DNA of 28,211 nucleotides from a virus: positions 1-28,211 of the IMG/VR virus record IMGVR_UViG_3300047328_000028. One strand, given 5' to 3'. Position 1 is the first letter of the stretch. Every line of letters starts with the position of its first letter. The notes below the pieces were generated by a model. That model was not told the DNA's origin, made no database searches, and worked only from the letters and a program-made list of their open reading frames with translations. The position numbers and the translations under genes were made by a program. This document shows, piece by piece, positions 9,330 through 23,328 of the stretch.

Positions 9330-9761
9330 TTAATGCCCCGAAAGTTGAACGCAAGGCAGGCCGGACTGCTGATCGATCCCGATCAGATAGCCGACAATGC
9401 CGGTGAAGCCTGAGCCTGGCTGGGTCATCGTGAAGGTCCCGTCATCGGACGCATACACGGGCGAATTGATGTTGGCGGTGGTGGCGCCGGTGACATTCAC
9501 CATCACCTCATCGGTGAAGGCGGTGATAAGACCAGGCGCCGCACTCATCGCAGCACCGCCAGCATTATTGTAACCGCCCTGCGCCATGCCGACGAACTTG
9601 CCGGCCGAGCCGATGGTCTGGATGCGCCCCACATTGCCGGCCGCATTCACCAGTATCAGCGACCCGGTATAGATGACCTCGGCCGCCATGATGCCGTAGG
9701 CGAAGGCGTAGCCGCGCGGGTTGCCGCGCCGCGCGATGGTACTATTCCCGGTCAACGCCAT
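9330..9761 (-). CDS. capsid decoration/cement-like protein
   Basis: This 143-residue protein sits between protease/scaffold and capsid. It contains glycine-spaced strands: PRGYAFAYGIMAAEVIYTGS, LILVNAAGNVGRIQT, KFVGMAQGGYNNAG and VMVNVTGATTANINSPVYAS. The pattern (x-x-G-x-L-x-x-x-x-x-G, then F-x-G-x-A, then V-x-x-x-G-x-x-x-x-x-x-x-V-Y) is that of DUF2190-type capsid cement proteins, which clamp the outside of the shell. In Mu itself this slot is occupied only by Z and T, so this is an addition seen in some Mu relatives. The start ATG overlaps the stop of the protease gene (TAATG). Without an alignment the decoration role is inferred from pattern and position. Confidence 0.65.
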   Translation of the reverse strand: MALTGNSTIARRGNPRGYAFAYGIMAAEVIYTGSLILVNAAGNVGRIQTIGSAGKFVGMAQGGYNNAGGAAMSAAPGLITAFTDEVMVNVTGATTANINSPVYASDDGTFTMTQPGSGFTGIVGYLIGIDQQSGLPCVQLSGH

Positions 9762-10267
9762 TACGCGGCACTCCCTTCAGTGGTGGCAGCCTTTTTCTTG
9801 GCCGCCATATATTGCTCTTTCGTGATCCCCATCTTCTTGATGATCGCCTCGTCGGCCGCGCTCATCATCTCCGTGTCCGTTTCCGGCTCGGACTCATGGC
9901 GGGTGGTGCGGGTGCCGCGGGCGGCGTGGATGCTCGGCAGCCCGTTCACAATCGTCTCGGTGCCGGCGGCATCCGCCACATGCATCGCGATGAACTGCGC
10001 GCGCGATGATACCAAAGGCTTGCCGGCCTTGATCGCGGCGTCGATGAAGGCGGTGGCCTTCTCGGTCTTGGTCTGAGCCTCCATCGTGTCGATCCGCGTC
10101 TGCAGCGCCACAACGGTCTCGGCCGGCACGGTCACCTTCCTCAGCTGCTCCAGCTCGGCTTTCAGCCGGGCACTGTCCGCCACCGCCGTTTGCAGCGCGG
10201 TCAGCACGGCTTCGTCTTCCACGGTCCCGGCAATGCCGAGCGCCGTGCAAATCGCTAATTTGTCCAT
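9761..10267 (-). CDS. Z: nested scaffold protein from internal start (Mu gpZ-like)
   Basis: Within the protease gene an in-frame ATG at 10267 (beginning MDKLAICTALGIAGTVEDEA) has a GAGGG site five nt upstream, a better ribosome site than that of the full-length gene. It would produce a 168-residue protein covering only the helical scaffold half, with ALQTAVADSARLKAELEQLR heptads. In Mu the scaffold Z is made exactly this way from the 3' part of I. I therefore list it as a separate product sharing the same stop. The protein would fill the prohead during assembly and be removed by the protease. Expression from this start is inferred. Confidence 0.6.
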   Translation of the reverse strand: MDKLAICTALGIAGTVEDEAVLTALQTAVADSARLKAELEQLRKVTVPAETVVALQTRIDTMEAQTKTEKATAFIDAAIKAGKPLVSSRAQFIAMHVADAAGTETIVNGLPSIHAARGTRTTRHESEPETDTEMMSAADEAIIKKMGITKEQYMAAKKKAATTEGSAA

Positions 10268-10720
10268 ATGTCCCTCAGGTTTGGCCGAGTGCATCGTCTG
10301 CAGCTGGGTCAGGTTTGGATTGTTGGTGAGTGCGGCGCTTTTTATCAGCACAACGGTGCCGTCTTTCGTGTGCGTAAAAACCGGGCTGATGCCCTTGTAG
10401 GATTTATCGGTCATCAAAGCCTGGCCGGCGGCGTTCCACTCAACCCGCCCCCAGATGCCGTCATCGCGGGCTTGCATGCCCACAATCCAGCCGCGCGCCG
10501 GCGATGCCCCGCCAACCGTTGCGGCCAGCTGGGTGGAATGGTTTTCATCCAACGGCAGCTTGCCCGCCGCCATCGATGCCTCGATCACTTTCGCCGGGTT
10601 CACCAGCTTGTACGGCCCGCGCCCGTCCACGCCCTTAAAAGTACCGGCCGGCATTAAATGCACCCATTCGGGTACATCACCGCCGGCCGGCAACATCAGG
10701 GTATGGGAGGAAACGTCCAT
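9761..10720 (-). CDS. I: prohead protease with C-terminal scaffold (Mu gpI-like)
   Basis: From ATG 10720 the protein has 319 residues. The N-terminal half matches the Mu I protease: PEWVHLMPAGTFKGVDGRGP near 17-36, then LPLDENHSTQL with the likely catalytic His at 61, GASPARGWIVGM, GIWGRVEWNAAGQALM and YKGISPVF (Ser at 112). It is expected to cleave scaffold and itself during head maturation. After about residue 150 the protein changes to a helical, charged scaffold region with coiled-coil character. An in-frame GTG at 10756 would add 12 residues, but it abuts the palindrome at 10757. The same arrangement (GTG at the palindrome, ATG 36 nt on) recurs at lysozyme, so I prefer the ATG. There is no Shine-Dalgarno site before it. 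Confidence 0.88.
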   Translation of the reverse strand: MDVSSHTLMLPAGGDVPEWVHLMPAGTFKGVDGRGPYKLVNPAKVIEASMAAGKLPLDENHSTQLAATVGGASPARGWIVGMQARDDGIWGRVEWNAAGQALMTDKSYKGISPVFTHTKDGTVVLIKSAALTNNPNLTQLQTMHSAKPEGHMDKLAICTALGIAGTVEDEAVLTALQTAVADSARLKAELEQLRKVTVPAETVVALQTRIDTMEAQTKTEKATAFIDAAIKAGKPLVSSRAQFIAMHVADAAGTETIVNGLPSIHAARGTRTTRHESEPETDTEMMSAADEAIIKKMGITKEQYMAAKKKAATTEGSAA

Positions 10721-10756
10721 GGCCAGGACAATGCCGGGCAGCACAACCACCCGCAC

Positions 10757-10772
10757 GCTAAACTAGTTTAGC
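10757..10772. promoter_or_regulatory. late-activator operator upstream of protease gene (PI-like)
   Basis: GCTAAACTAGTTTAGC is a perfect 16-bp palindrome. It lies exactly 36 nt upstream of ATG 10720, the same spacing as the copy before lysozyme. A CATTGT at 10728-10733 (minus strand) could be a weak -10 element, placing the dyad centre about 34 bp further upstream, where Mu C binds relative to its promoters. No good -35 is visible. Mu has its late promoter PI at this gene. Confidence 0.7.
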
Positions 10773-13867: not shown

Positions 13868-15535
13868 TTACGCCCTCGCGTGCGGGGCAATCTCATCCAG
13901 CAACGCCGCTTGGCCGGCGATGTTCGCCAGCGCCATGCCCTGCATCAGCGCGGTCTGGAAGGCGTGCGTGTCCAGCTCCAGCTTCGCCAGGCGCTCAGCC
14001 AGGTCCGGCAAGTCCTTCGCCTCCTCAAAACATTGCTTAACCTGGCCGGTCATTCCCGCCAGCGCGCCTTGCGCATCGCGCGCCAGCCGGTCTTCCAGCG
14101 CCTCCAGCACGTCGCCGGCTTGCGGCGTGTGGCGGGACAGAAGCTTGCCGAACATCCCCACCATCAACACCCGCTCATCGGAATTCGGGTTGATCTCCGG
14201 GTGCGGGTTGGCCTTCGGGTTCAAATCGGCTTTCACCAGCGGGTTGCCGTTGGCGTCTTTCGCAACCGGCGGTGCTGCGGCCGGCGGGCCGATCACATCG
14301 TCGCCCGCCTCCGGCGGTTCCAGCTGCAGCCGGTCATAAATATCTGCGGTTTTTACCTTGAACCCAAGTGGCCCCAAATCCGCCACGGCGGCAATCACAT
14401 CGCTCAGCGGCACTTTTTCCTCGGTGCCGATTTTTATCGTCGGGTATTTATCCTGCGGCCCGAAGGTGAACGCGATCATCGGCTCGATGATCTGCCGGTT
14501 AATCCCCCCGGCCAGCAACCCGCCATCGAATTTTTCAACATCCTGCTCGGCCGCGCGGTGTTCCTGGCCCACCGCATGGCCGCCTTTAATCGCGTCCGTG
14601 CCGGCGGTGCCGCCCAGCACCAGTTTGGAAACCTCGTAATTCAGCCAGTTGGCGCGGCCCGTAAACAGCTCGGCGCCGTTCACCGCCCCCTTCGCCTCAA
14701 CGAACTCCATCTCCATCGATTTTGGAATAATCGCGGCCAGGTCTCCGGCAATGCCGCGCACCGCCCGCCACAAGGTGCGCTTGTCATTCTCCGATGCTTC
14801 CGGCCCATAACGCCCCAGCCGCACCGGCAGCCCGTAGCCTTGCACAAACAGCGCCCAGTCTTTCAACGTGAATGTGCCATACAGCCACAGCCACGCCACC
14901 ATGCGGGTTAAGCCGCTGCGCACCGGGTTGCCGGACTTGGAGGCATGCACGTGCAGCAGGAATTTATGCGGCGCCAGGTCGGCAAAGCCGCCGGTCACCC
15001 GCTCACGAATGGTTTGCCCGTCTTTCCAGCTCACTTCAAAATCGCGCTGGTTGCGCCACAGAATTTCCGCCGGCCGCACGCTGCCTGGCTGCACATCCCA
15101 CATGATTTCATTAACCGAATAGCCCTTGCCGATGCCGTCGGTAATGTCGAACATCGCGCGGTCCAGCACGCCGCTATCCAGCCAGTCCCGCACAAAATCC
15201 GCGTGTTTTTCGCCATCCGGCAATTTCGCCGCCTTCACGGTCACCGGCAGCAGGCTCACCTGGCGGCGGCGCTTGCTCAGCACGGATGAGTAGTGAACAT
15301 ACAGCTCCTCAATTTCCTCGGCGATGATGAACCAGTCCCGCGTCTGGCCCATATCGGCGGCGCGGATAATCGCCCCCAGCCGGCCAGGGTCCACGCCGAA
15401 CGCCAGATTGCCGACAAAGGGTTGCCGCACGGACATTGATGACGGCGCCGCGATAGGCGATTTCAGCCGCGCGATTTCCCACGCGGCAATCGGCGCGCCG
15501 AATTGGTCCACCAGGCCGCTCACATCATCCGCCAT
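13868..15535 (-). CDS. portal protein, DUF935 family (Mu gp29-like)
   Basis: From ATG 15535 this is a 555-residue protein; an upstream in-frame extension to 15595 exists but lies inside the preceding gene. Family features include PIAAPSSMSVRQPFV, LGAIIRAADMGQTRDWFIIA, EEIEELYVHYSSVLSKRRRQ (about 72-91), GIGKGYSVNEIMWDVQPGS, and LFVQGYGLPVRLGRYGPEAS. The E-L-x-x-x-Y-x-x-x-L-x-x-R-R stretch and the W-x-x-F-x-x-x-Y-G-x-P-x-R-x-G-type segment are characteristic of DUF935 portals. The protein forms the dodecameric DNA gate at one head vertex and docks the terminase. The C-terminal 130 residues are an Ala/Asn/Pro linker followed by helices. The 11-nt overlap with the upstream gene suggests coupling. 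Confidence 0.92.
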   Translation of the reverse strand: MADDVSGLVDQFGAPIAAWEIARLKSPIAAPSSMSVRQPFVGNLAFGVDPGRLGAIIRAADMGQTRDWFIIAEEIEELYVHYSSVLSKRRRQVSLLPVTVKAAKLPDGEKHADFVRDWLDSGVLDRAMFDITDGIGKGYSVNEIMWDVQPGSVRPAEILWRNQRDFEVSWKDGQTIRERVTGGFADLAPHKFLLHVHASKSGNPVRSGLTRMVAWLWLYGTFTLKDWALFVQGYGLPVRLGRYGPEASENDKRTLWRAVRGIAGDLAAIIPKSMEMEFVEAKGAVNGAELFTGRANWLNYEVSKLVLGGTAGTDAIKGGHAVGQEHRAAEQDVEKFDGGLLAGGINRQIIEPMIAFTFGPQDKYPTIKIGTEEKVPLSDVIAAVADLGPLGFKVKTADIYDRLQLEPPEAGDDVIGPPAAAPPVAKDANGNPLVKADLNPKANPHPEINPNSDERVLMVGMFGKLLSRHTPQAGDVLEALEDRLARDAQGALAGMTGQVKQCFEEAKDLPDLAERLAKLELDTHAFQTALMQGMALANIAGQAALLDEIAPHARA

Positions 15536-21300: not shown

Positions 21301-21887
21301 AAAACTCTCCATGATGCGGCGCTTGGGTTGATCGTCATCGCGATCACTACGAACGCGGCGCCGAGAAGCGCGCCCGTAAACACTTCGCCCCATTCCTGCC
21401 CTTCCGCGAATTTCGGAACCGCCGGCCAGGGCAATCTTGCCAGCAAATAACAGGGGGCAAATCCAACACCGCACGCCAGCAGCCAGGCGCCGATACGCCA
21501 GTCAAACCAGCCATAAAGCAACGCCAGCGGCGCCATGCAGCACAAGCCGCTCTCAGCCATGCCGATAAAATCATGCGCGGTCGTTCCGGCCTTAAAGCCC
21601 AGCAGTTGCGGCAGCCAGCGCTTCCATGAAGGTTCAGGTCTGCCGGAAACCGGCAACCCCATCCCCTGAAACGGCCCCCAGCCGCCGATGCAAATGCCGA
21701 TGAACAGCACCGGCACGCCAGGAGCAAACCACATCACCGGCAACAGCCCAGCCAACATTGCCCGCAAAGCCCGCGCAGCGTCCGAGCCAAAATTCAATCC
21801 GGTGATGCTGGTAAACGCCCCACCGCCCAGCCGCCACACAAAAGCCCCGGCGAGTGCTGCCAGAAAGATGATGAAACAATCCATCAC
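21297..21887 (-). CDS. polytopic membrane protein in lysis cassette
   Basis: This 196-residue protein has four or five hydrophobic segments: FIIFLAALAGAFVWRLGGGA (4-23), LLPVMWFAPGVPVLFIGICI, LCCMAPLALLYGWF, WLLACGVGFAPCYLLARL and GEVFTGALLGAAFVVIAMTI. Between them is a conserved-looking GWGPFQGMGLP and a W-K-R-W-L-P-Q-L-L-G stretch. It begins inside the lysozyme stop codon area (ATGA) and ends overlapping the next start. Family unknown. Location suggests a lysis or membrane role (for example a holin or superinfection-exclusion protein), without proof. The segment count is by eye. Confidence 0.65.
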   Translation of the reverse strand: MMDCFIIFLAALAGAFVWRLGGGAFTSITGLNFGSDAARALRAMLAGLLPVMWFAPGVPVLFIGICIGGWGPFQGMGLPVSGRPEPSWKRWLPQLLGFKAGTTAHDFIGMAESGLCCMAPLALLYGWFDWRIGAWLLACGVGFAPCYLLARLPWPAVPKFAEGQEWGEVFTGALLGAAFVVIAMTINPSAASWRVL

Positions 21888-22420
21888 GCCACCAGCCCGG
21901 TCATATCAAGCTGGCCGGTAAACACTTGCGCTTCCAGCTTGCGGCGCTTCACCAGCCCTGGCAGAGGCTTGCCGCTGCCATACACCCAGTATGGAAACTG
22001 CAACGCCATGCCGGCGAAATTTCCCGCCAGCAGCATTTTGTACATGGTGGAATGGGTGCCGGATTTGAGCCAGACGAAGCCATCTTTCACGCCCGGCTTG
22101 CCGGGCCCCACATTGTTCATAAAGCTGGTCAGCGCGCCCAGCTGGTCACCATTCAGCAGCATCGGCGCATAGGCCATCACCAGATCGCACGATCCGGTTA
22201 AATCGGCCTGCAGCATCGCATCCGCCTGCGCCCGGCTGATCACATCGCCGGGCTTCACCGGCAGCCCGTTCAACCGGGTGGAACCGCGACCGATCGTCCA
22301 GGGCTCGCCGCCTGTTCCGGGGTCCGGGTAGGCTTCCAGCTCGCAGCCTTCGCAGGCATTGGCAATGCCCGTCGCCTGGGCAATCGCGCGCGCGATAATG
22401 GTTTGGGGGTATTGCAACAT
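21884..22420 (-). CDS. lysozyme/endolysin, GH24 (T4 lysozyme-type)
   Basis: From ATG 22420 this is a 178-residue endolysin. The catalytic region reads ACEGCELEAYPDPGTGGEPW then TIGRGSTRLNG: Glu24, then Asp33 (8 residues on) and Thr42, the E-D-T triad of GH24 with three extra residues in the loop before the Thr. It later has ISRAQADAMLQADLTGSCDL and LNGDQLGALTSFMNNVGPGK, both typical of this family. It cleaves the MurNAc-GlcNAc bond in the cell wall. There is no signal peptide or SAR anchor, so release needs a holin. A GTG at 22456 would add 12 residues, but it abuts the palindrome; spacing conservation with the protease gene favours the ATG. No ribosome site precedes it. Confidence 0.92.
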   Translation of the reverse strand: MLQYPQTIIARAIAQATGIANACEGCELEAYPDPGTGGEPWTIGRGSTRLNGLPVKPGDVISRAQADAMLQADLTGSCDLVMAYAPMLLNGDQLGALTSFMNNVGPGKPGVKDGFVWLKSGTHSTMYKMLLAGNFAGMALQFPYWVYGSGKPLPGLVKRRKLEAQVFTGQLDMTGLVA

Positions 22421-22456
22421 GGCAGGATCATTGAACGGTCCCGGCACGTGCGGCAC

Positions 22457-22472
22457 GCTAAACTAGTTGAGC
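22457..22472. promoter_or_regulatory. late-activator operator upstream of lysozyme (Plys-like)
   Basis: GCTAAACTAGTTGAGC matches the palindrome at 10757-10772 with a single mismatch (T to G at position 12). It lies just after the Mor/C-like gene ends (22478) and 36 nt before lysozyme ATG 22420. The next four bases of the minus strand (GTGC) are also identical at both copies. In Mu, the late promoter Plys sits between C and lys. Confidence 0.7.
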
Positions 22473-22477
22473 GTTGA

Positions 22478-22822
22478 TCATTCGAACGCGAACGATCTTT
22501 GTTCTGCAACTTTGCCCTTCTCGCCGCGATATTTGTAATACGCGGCTTCGGTGCAAGCGGCCAGCTTGGCAATCTCGACAGGTCTTAGACCACGCCGCTC
22601 GTAAATTTCAAAACGCTGCCGCCGCGCCATCGGCACGGCGATAAAGCTGCCGCCGAAATACTGGAATAGCAAGGCAAAGCCGGAATCGCCCAGCAGGTCG
22701 CGCAAAATATGTTTTTCCGGAAACTCCTTCGGCACGTCCACGCGCCTGCCGCCATAGGCTTCCACCAGTTTCAAGGTGGCATCCTCACCCAGCAGCTCGA
22801 GCAGGGCGGAAAATTCACTCAC
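22478..22822 (-). CDS. Mor/C-family transcription activator
   Basis: This 114-residue protein fits the Mor family: TLKLVEAYGGRRVDVPK at about 16-32 (the dimerisation strand with the family's Y-G-G-x-x-x-x-V-P motif), HILRDLLGDSGFALLFQYFG, then a helix-turn-helix at 77-100, RGLRPVEIAKLAACTEAAYY. In Mu, Mor turns on the middle promoter and C turns on the late promoters lys, I, P and mom. Only one such gene is visible here, so it may serve both roles or be the C equivalent. It starts at GTG 22822 (GTGA overlap with GemA) and is followed by the palindrome that I propose as its operator. Confidence 0.88.
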   Translation of the reverse strand: MSEFSALLELLGEDATLKLVEAYGGRRVDVPKEFPEKHILRDLLGDSGFALLFQYFGGSFIAVPMARRQRFEIYERRGLRPVEIAKLAACTEAAYYKYRGEKGKVAEQRSFAFE

Positions 22823-23328
22823 CGTTTCTTGTCGCCTGCGGGCTTGTACTCAACCGGCGGCAGCCCGGCCGGCCGGCGCCGCATTTTCACAACGCCCTTG
22901 GTTTTATGCTCGGCCGCGCGTTTGCGCTGCTCGCGCGCAAGCCAGGCTTTCAACCCCTCGATCACCAAATTGGCATCCTCCGGGTTCAAAAACTCCGGCG
23001 CGTCCTGGCCGGTTTGCCGCCGCACGAAGCTGCGCAAAGCGGTGTGCGAATGGTCGGTTAAATACGGCTTAAGGTCGCCCCAAATACCGTAAATCATGCG
23101 CACATAGGCTTTATCGGAGCGTTTATGTTTCGCCGCCTCGGCGGTGAAGCCCAGCCGTTTGAACTCGGCAATCACCGCCTCCAGCTGGGCGGGCGTGCAG
23201 GTGGCGGCGCTGTCCTGCCCCGCCACCCGCATCAGCATCGCCCGGTAGCTGTCATCCTCCAGGGCAAGCTGTTTTTTGGCGATATGGATTTTCGCCAGCA
23301 TCGCCCGGCGCTCCGGCTGCACGCTCAC
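22819..23328 (-). CDS. gemA: GemA-like protein (DUF1018, Mu gp16)
   Basis: This 169-residue protein starts with RRAMLAKIHIAKKQLALEDD, YRAMLMRVAGQDSAATCTPA and QLEAVIAEFKRLGFTAEAAK, then MIYGIWGDLKPYL and FVRRQTGQDAPEFLNPEDAN, the landmarks of the Mu GemA/DUF1018 family. In Mu, GemA modulates host gene expression and DNA supercoiling, and decatenates or relaxes replication coupling during infection. Here it sits just upstream of the activator gene, as gemA precedes mor in Mu. It has overlaps with both neighbours. The final 30 residues are basic and variable. Confidence 0.92.
   Translation of the reverse strand: MSVQPERRAMLAKIHIAKKQLALEDDSYRAMLMRVAGQDSAATCTPAQLEAVIAEFKRLGFTAEAAKHKRSDKAYVRMIYGIWGDLKPYLTDHSHTALRSFVRRQTGQDAPEFLNPEDANLVIEGLKAWLAREQRKRAAEHKTKGVVKMRRRPAGLPPVEYKPAGDKKR

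Follow-up and report, generated by a model that had tools for sequence, protein, structure and literature searches.

To our knowledge, the activators Mor and C have been studied essentially in phage Mu alone, and the way in which they read DNA is poorly known. In the Mu C system, one small phage-encoded activator acts at a dyad upstream of the -35 element of promoters with weak core elements (PMC4461284), and the Mor dyad in the Mu promoter Pm is 16 bp long, extends from -51 to -36 and is centred at -43.5 (PMC4287176). Leaderless messages are described from Gluconobacter oxydans, where about 5% of the mapped starts or transcripts are leaderless by a criterion of at most 3 nt (PMC5756330).

We have analysed a whole IMG/VR viral contig of 28,211 bases (called the window below), the end of which falls before the tail genes. 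On its minus strand there is a perfect 16-bp palindrome, GCTAAACTAGTTTAGC, at 10757-10772, and a copy with one mismatch, GCTCAACTAGTTTAGC, at 22457-22472. When up to three mismatches were allowed these were the only two matches in the 28,211 bases; shuffled versions of the window gave a mean of 0.02 matches, and two matches were obtained in none of 100 shuffles. One palindrome precedes gene I (head maturation protease) and the other precedes lys (lysozyme), and the features of both regions are as follows.

9761..10720, minus strand: gene I, head maturation protease, 319 aa from the ATG (PF10123, Mu-like I protease, 5e-46)
10718..10720, minus strand: start codon (ATG) of gene I, where transcription is predicted to begin with a leader of 0 to ca. 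3 nt (from homologue alignment and spacing; start predicted from the Mor dyad geometry)
10728..10733, minus strand: -10-like hexamer CATTGT of gene I, 17 bp from the -35-like hexamer and ending 7 nt before the ATG (from the clade alignment)
10751..10756, minus strand: -35-like hexamer GTGCGG, abutting the gene I operator (clade consensus aTGa)
10757..10772, minus strand: putative gene I operator, palindrome GCTAAACTAGTTTAGC (57 distinct I promoters have a palindrome in this position)
21884..22420, minus strand: lys, phage lysozyme, 178 aa from the ATG (PF00959, 4e-26)
22418..22420, minus strand: ATG of lys and predicted transcription start (from spacing and comparison with relatives)
22427..22433, minus strand: -10-like region CAATGAT of lys (from comparison with relatives)
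22451..22456, minus strand: -35-like hexamer GTGCCG, abutting the lys operator (from the clade pattern)
22457..22472, minus strand: putative operator palindrome GCTCAACTAGTTTAGC of the lys promoter (from the motif scan)
22478..22822, minus strand: putative late activator of the Mor/C type, 114 aa, its gene lying between gemA and the lys operator and next to both (PHROG 836, 1.2e-13)
22499..22549, minus strand: predicted recognition helix of the activator, residues 92-108 (from the structure model; covariation with positions 2 and 4 of the half-site is seen at residues 92 and 93)

A preliminary description of this DNA had reported both palindromes, a distance of exactly 36 nt from the end of each to an in-frame ATG (10720 and 22420), the same GTGC after both on the minus strand and no Shine-Dalgarno (SD) site at either ATG. 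A scan of the window confirmed the palindromes, the distances and the GTGC, and no SD-like sequence precedes either start codon. The Mor/C-type gene that it had placed at 22478-22822 is an open reading frame matching the PHROG family of late transcriptional activators. Its central proposal, a pair of late-activator promoters at lys and I, is supported by relatives with palindromes at both places that are matched within a phage, by the covariation of operator bases with the recognition helix of the adjacent Mor/C-type protein, and by the agreement of the 16-bp length and the position with the Mor dyad of Mu Pm (PMC4287176). Its suggestion of a new operator specificity is supported too; the palindromes differ between phages, and the altered specificity is a clade-wide property. 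The search of related Mu-like prophages upstream of lys and I that it had recommended did find palindromes there, but nearly every phage has its own sequence. The third copy before gp46 and the probable lack of leaders (both below) go beyond that description.

We consider it very likely that the palindromes are the operators of the phage's own activator, that they switch on lys and I late with transcription starting at or within ca. 3 nt of the ATG, so that the messages would be leaderless, and that they co-diversify with the activator. The course of events that we infer from the sequences is that the Mor/C-type protein encoded at 22478-22822 would bind both palindromes as dimer operators and, placed just upstream of a weak -35 element, would recruit or activate the host RNA polymerase at the -10-like site 17-18 bp further on. 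Both operons, lys and I, would thereby be turned on in the late phase of lytic growth, and in the relatives a third such promoter would precede the baseplate gene gp46. The first transcribed base would belong to the I or lys ATG or lie no more than ca. 3 nt from it, and the leaderless late mRNAs would be translated without a Shine-Dalgarno site.

The arrangement resembles that of Mu C at Plys and PI, in that the putative late promoters lie directly after the activator gene (lys) and before I, with the dyad upstream of -35 (PMC4461284); sites at two members of the Mu late promoter set (lys, I, P, mom), namely lys and I, are present in the window. In contrast to Mu, the dyad is here a full 16-bp palindrome that varies from phage to phage, the third site of the relatives is found before gp46 and not before P, and lys and I seem to lack the leaders with SD-like sequences that stand before these two genes in Mu. 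The scan for matched palindromes described below found no such pair in Mu, which means that the Mu sites are not of the perfect-palindrome type. With Mor and Pm the locus shares a 16-bp dyad at the matching position (PMC4287176) and an activator gene adjacent to gemA. However, Mu has both Mor and C, while a single Mor/C-type gene was found in the window and in each of its relatives, and the sites are here at late operons. We found no report of perfect, phage-specific palindromes, of a gp46 site, of a single Mor/C-type gene or of leaderless late genes for Mu-like phages in the open-access literature.

Relatives were gathered by portal-protein searches, with I, the activator and the portal gene on one contig, and the named hosts of the related prophages in the genome collection were mostly Acetobacteraceae bins. 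The closest activators found are only 38-57% identical to that of the window, and tblastn of the window activator against phage records gave weak matches only (<42% identity). A search of viral contigs with the window operator pattern returned 83 matches, close to the chance expectation, so the operator letters themselves are not shared among viral contigs. What is shared is the arrangement. Close relatives have a 16-bp palindrome at both places, identical within a phage and different between phages, for example GCTGACATATGTCAGC twice in L004, GCTAGACATGTCTAGC twice in L006 and GCTGTTGCGCAACAGC twice in L008. We compared the 220 nt preceding I with a stretch of 290 nt around the stop codon of the activator gene in a de novo search for matched palindromes, leaving the motif position free, with mispaired (cross-phage) combinations of phages as the null (99% quantile 52, maximum 56). 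The window scored 60 and many relatives 54-64; in a second, later-collected set, 15 of 50 phages scored below 48 and had no clear pair. The clade contains 42 distinct half-sites in 63 phages and, as far as these genomes tell, activator and operators co-diversify and most phage lineages own their operator. A later relative, L297, has an operator that is almost that of the window (GCTAAACGGCTTGAGC and GCTCAAAGGTTTGAGC), and the start of its recognition helix (TEATVYK) is almost identical to that of the window (TEAAYYK).

Some phages of the second set often had pairs of the form GCCCGCC/GGCGGGC, which initially looked like terminators but were retained as operators because the same distance to the ATG is kept. 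The phages TJ1 and KS10 had no convincing palindrome pair; the match in KS10 is an artefact, because its I directly follows the activator gene, so that the two regions searched overlap. Rhizobium phage RR1-B, Rhodobacter phage RC1 and Thiobacimonas phage vB_ThpS-P1 have near-palindromes that match each other at both places, upstream of I and behind the activator gene, although these have their own operator sequences and RR1-B has an I gene with a leader and an SD site. In RR1-B (L181) a long palindrome, GACCGGAACCGAGTTCCGGTC, followed by a T-rich run stands both before I and after the activator gene, and could be an operator together with a terminator of the upstream operon; a -10-like element, GCATGGTC, lies at the same distance, but I has its leader with SD. 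Two genome bins contain two Mu-like prophages each with different operators, L101 and L104 in G002 (CTCCCCGC and GCCCGCAG) and L273 and L274 in G433 (GCCCCCAG and GCCCGCCG), keeping in mind that bins may be mixed. Differing operators within one bin are expected if late switches avoid cross-talk.

The remaining record ends of 12 phages were taken as well, and for 11 of them the sequence extends into the tail region (the stretch from L104 contains only the I copy again). In each of these 11 fuller records the operator of the phage occurs a third time there, on the late strand, and in 10 of the 11 it is followed at +33 to +37 by an ATG that opens a gp46 homologue (PF07409, 9e-22). The window contig ends before the gp46 region, and we predict that a third copy of GCTMAACTAGTTTAGC lies about 35 nt before gp46 beyond its end. 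The third site of L004 (L241, at about 3942) precedes a different gene, not gp46, with a longer leader. Most of the gp46 promoters (L240, L242-L248, L249) also have alternating CG in a conserved (CG)4-5 tract that abuts the upstream side of the -10-like element, as in GCGCGCGCGATAGC; this tract was not seen at I or lys and may matter for DNA melting or the response to supercoiling.

By its sequence, the window protein is probably a distant member of the Mor/C family. Its score against PF08765 (Mor) is 13.4 bits, below the cut-off of 24.9; 29 of 45 clade activators match this profile (best 1e-7), and hhalign of the clade against Mu Mor gave a probability of 83%, over the helix-turn-helix (HTH) only. 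The gene order is that of the family, with gemA (22819-23328, PF06252), the activator (22478-22822) and lys (21884-22420). The structure model (mean pLDDT 92) has an N-terminal domain and a C-terminal HTH formed by helices 67-76, 81-87 and 92-108, which resembles NarL-type and sigma region 4 HTHs (Z 5-6). A Foldseek search of the model against PDB gave nothing with E <0.001, and the solved structure of Mor did not come up, although a Mor-like fold may still apply.

Among 29 activators, residue 92 with half-site base 2 and residue 93 with bases 4 and 5 were among the strongest of about 800 associations tested. E92 goes with C2 in 17 of 17 phages of the first set and in 23 of 23 of the second (40/40), R92 with G2 in 6/6 and R93 with G4 in 11/12 (both sets), the residue pairs having been picked from the about 800 tested in the first set and the second set being mostly E92-C2. 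E-C and R-G are contacts expected of such side chains in HTH-DNA recognition. The distance between operators correlates with that between recognition helices (Mantel r 0.37, p 0.0002), also when the N-terminal domain is allowed for (0.27, p 0.0004). These covariation counts share descent. On a tree of the I proteins R92 changes five times, G2 six times, R93 nine times and G4 ten times. Comparison of phylogenetically independent pairs showed the base either changing together with the residue or staying as it was, never the opposite; the single-position sign tests on the starred branches, each with too few pairs, do not reach 0.05. The operator would probably be read in part by recognition-helix residues 92 and 93.

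In the curated set an in-frame ATG of I follows the palindrome at 35-39 nt in 31 of 31 phages, and in the second set at 33-40 nt in all 28 phages scoring at least 52, compared to only 7 of the 15 low scorers. Over 57 distinct I promoters the distance is 37 nt in 33 cases, 36 nt in ten, 35 nt in eight, 38 nt in four, and 39 and 40 nt in one each. Aligned on the palindrome, these promoters have TG directly after it (T in 45/57, G in 42/57; consensus aTGa), and this TG at the -35-like place explains the GTGC found after both palindromes of the window. Aligned on the ATG, they show an A/T-rich hexamer, cATnnT, at -13 to -8 in GC-rich surroundings (A at -12 in 38/57, T at -8 in 39/57, with T at -11 also part of the pattern). 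The -35-like and -10-like elements are separated by 17-18 bp, and the -10-like sites of the window (CATTGT, CAATGA) are weak. If the A of the ATG is taken as +1, the gene I operator of the window spans -52 to -37, just upstream of the -35-like hexamer, compared to -51 to -36 in Mu Pm. Transferring the Mu Pm dyad geometry (PMC4287176) puts the predicted +1 at 10720 or 10721, that is, on the start codon of I.

These ATGs are conserved starts, because the homologues of both I and lys align from residue 1 of the ATG forms. With the predicted start on the ATG, the transcripts would be leaderless by the criterion of at most 3 nt used in Gluconobacter oxydans (PMC5756330). A G at -3 is present in 45 of 57 I promoters and could be the start instead, which would give a leader of 3 nt. 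All curated I genes start with ATG and their SD energy is at background, with a median of -2.2 kcal/mol at I, compared to -3.0 for randomly chosen positions and -6.15 for the capsid gene T (only medians are compared, as the random-position mean is distorted by windows without any duplex). In the cultured phages RC1 (operator CCACAAACCGTTGTGG) and vB_ThpS-P1 the palindrome lies 37 nt before the I start as annotated by others. At the activator-proximal copies an ATG at 33-40 nt was found in 25 of 57 cases (background 13%), window lys among them, while the other activator-proximal promoters carry a leader, in L106 with a visible SD. The predicted leaderlessness is thus regular at I (and at gp46 in the records checked), not at the activator-proximal promoter. 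The late I and lys messages of the window probably carry no leader. They would resemble the leaderless mRNAs of Alphaproteobacteria in lacking an SD and in starting (here by prediction) no more than 3 nt from the ATG (PMC5756330), but differ in that the trait goes with the late promoters of phages and recurs at homologous genes in many of them. Along other lines, gene I is split in L009 (13856-14818) by an in-frame stop at about 14588-14590, with the upstream operator and ATG intact, and in L098 and L099 some 95 additional residues interrupt the I protease midway along the family profile.

The same palindromes could be activator operators in front of messages with ordinary leaders, with transcription starting upstream or with another start codon, for instance a GTG directly after the palindrome. 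In-frame GTGs do exist there (10756 and 22456) and would give forms of 331 and 190 aa, and both RR1-B, with a comparable operator, and L106, at its activator-proximal promoter, have a leader with SD. However, the homologues align from the ATG and not from the GTG, all of the 57 distinct promoters keep a distance of 35-40 nt from palindrome to ATG, and between the -10-like site and the ATG there are only 7 nt and no SD; we regard this alternative as unlikely. It is also conceivable that the palindromes bind another regulator, a phage repressor or a host protein, as repressor sites for the late genes. Perfect palindromes are typical of repressor operators too, and position cannot separate activation from repression. 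Yet the copies in the window are found only at late operons and none in the early region, they sit where Mor binds in Pm (PMC4287176), and the covariation of their bases with the recognition helix of the Mor/C-type protein encoded next to them involves pairs that make chemical sense (E-C, R-G), all of which makes a repressor role very improbable.

As perfect inverted repeats between operons, in RR1-B even followed by a T-rich run, the palindromes might be thought to act as RNA hairpins, either terminators or processing sites. But no T run follows the palindrome in the window or in most relatives, and terminators would not give a loop-less palindrome, a fixed distance to the -10 element and ATG, and covariation with a DNA-binding helix; we give this explanation even less credit than repressor sites. 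Finally, two copies in one window are a small number, and a chance resemblance might be suspected, but the shuffle test and the dozens of phages in which matched pairs again occupy these two places refute it, and its probability is negligible.

Operators of the phage's own activator thus being the preferred reading, what we infer is a Mor/C-type late switch with a rapidly diversifying specificity and with start codons fused to its promoters. We are inclined to believe, with rather less assurance than for the operators themselves, that leaderless, promoter-fused late genes are a clade-wide trait and that the specificity of the activator has diversified like that of immunity repressors, by a simple residue-base code and in such a way that co-resident prophages do not cross-react. 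With over 40 pairs of activator and operator, all at a single fixed position in the promoter, there is enough material to read the specificity code and to pick orthogonal pairs. Judging from this arrangement, a phage may also be able to join a late promoter directly to the start codon, dispensing with ribosome-binding sites at essential morphogenesis genes, and leaderless translation during infection is directly testable in cultured phages such as RC1. As to what drives the rapid divergence, one testable answer would be the avoidance of cross-activation between co-resident prophages.
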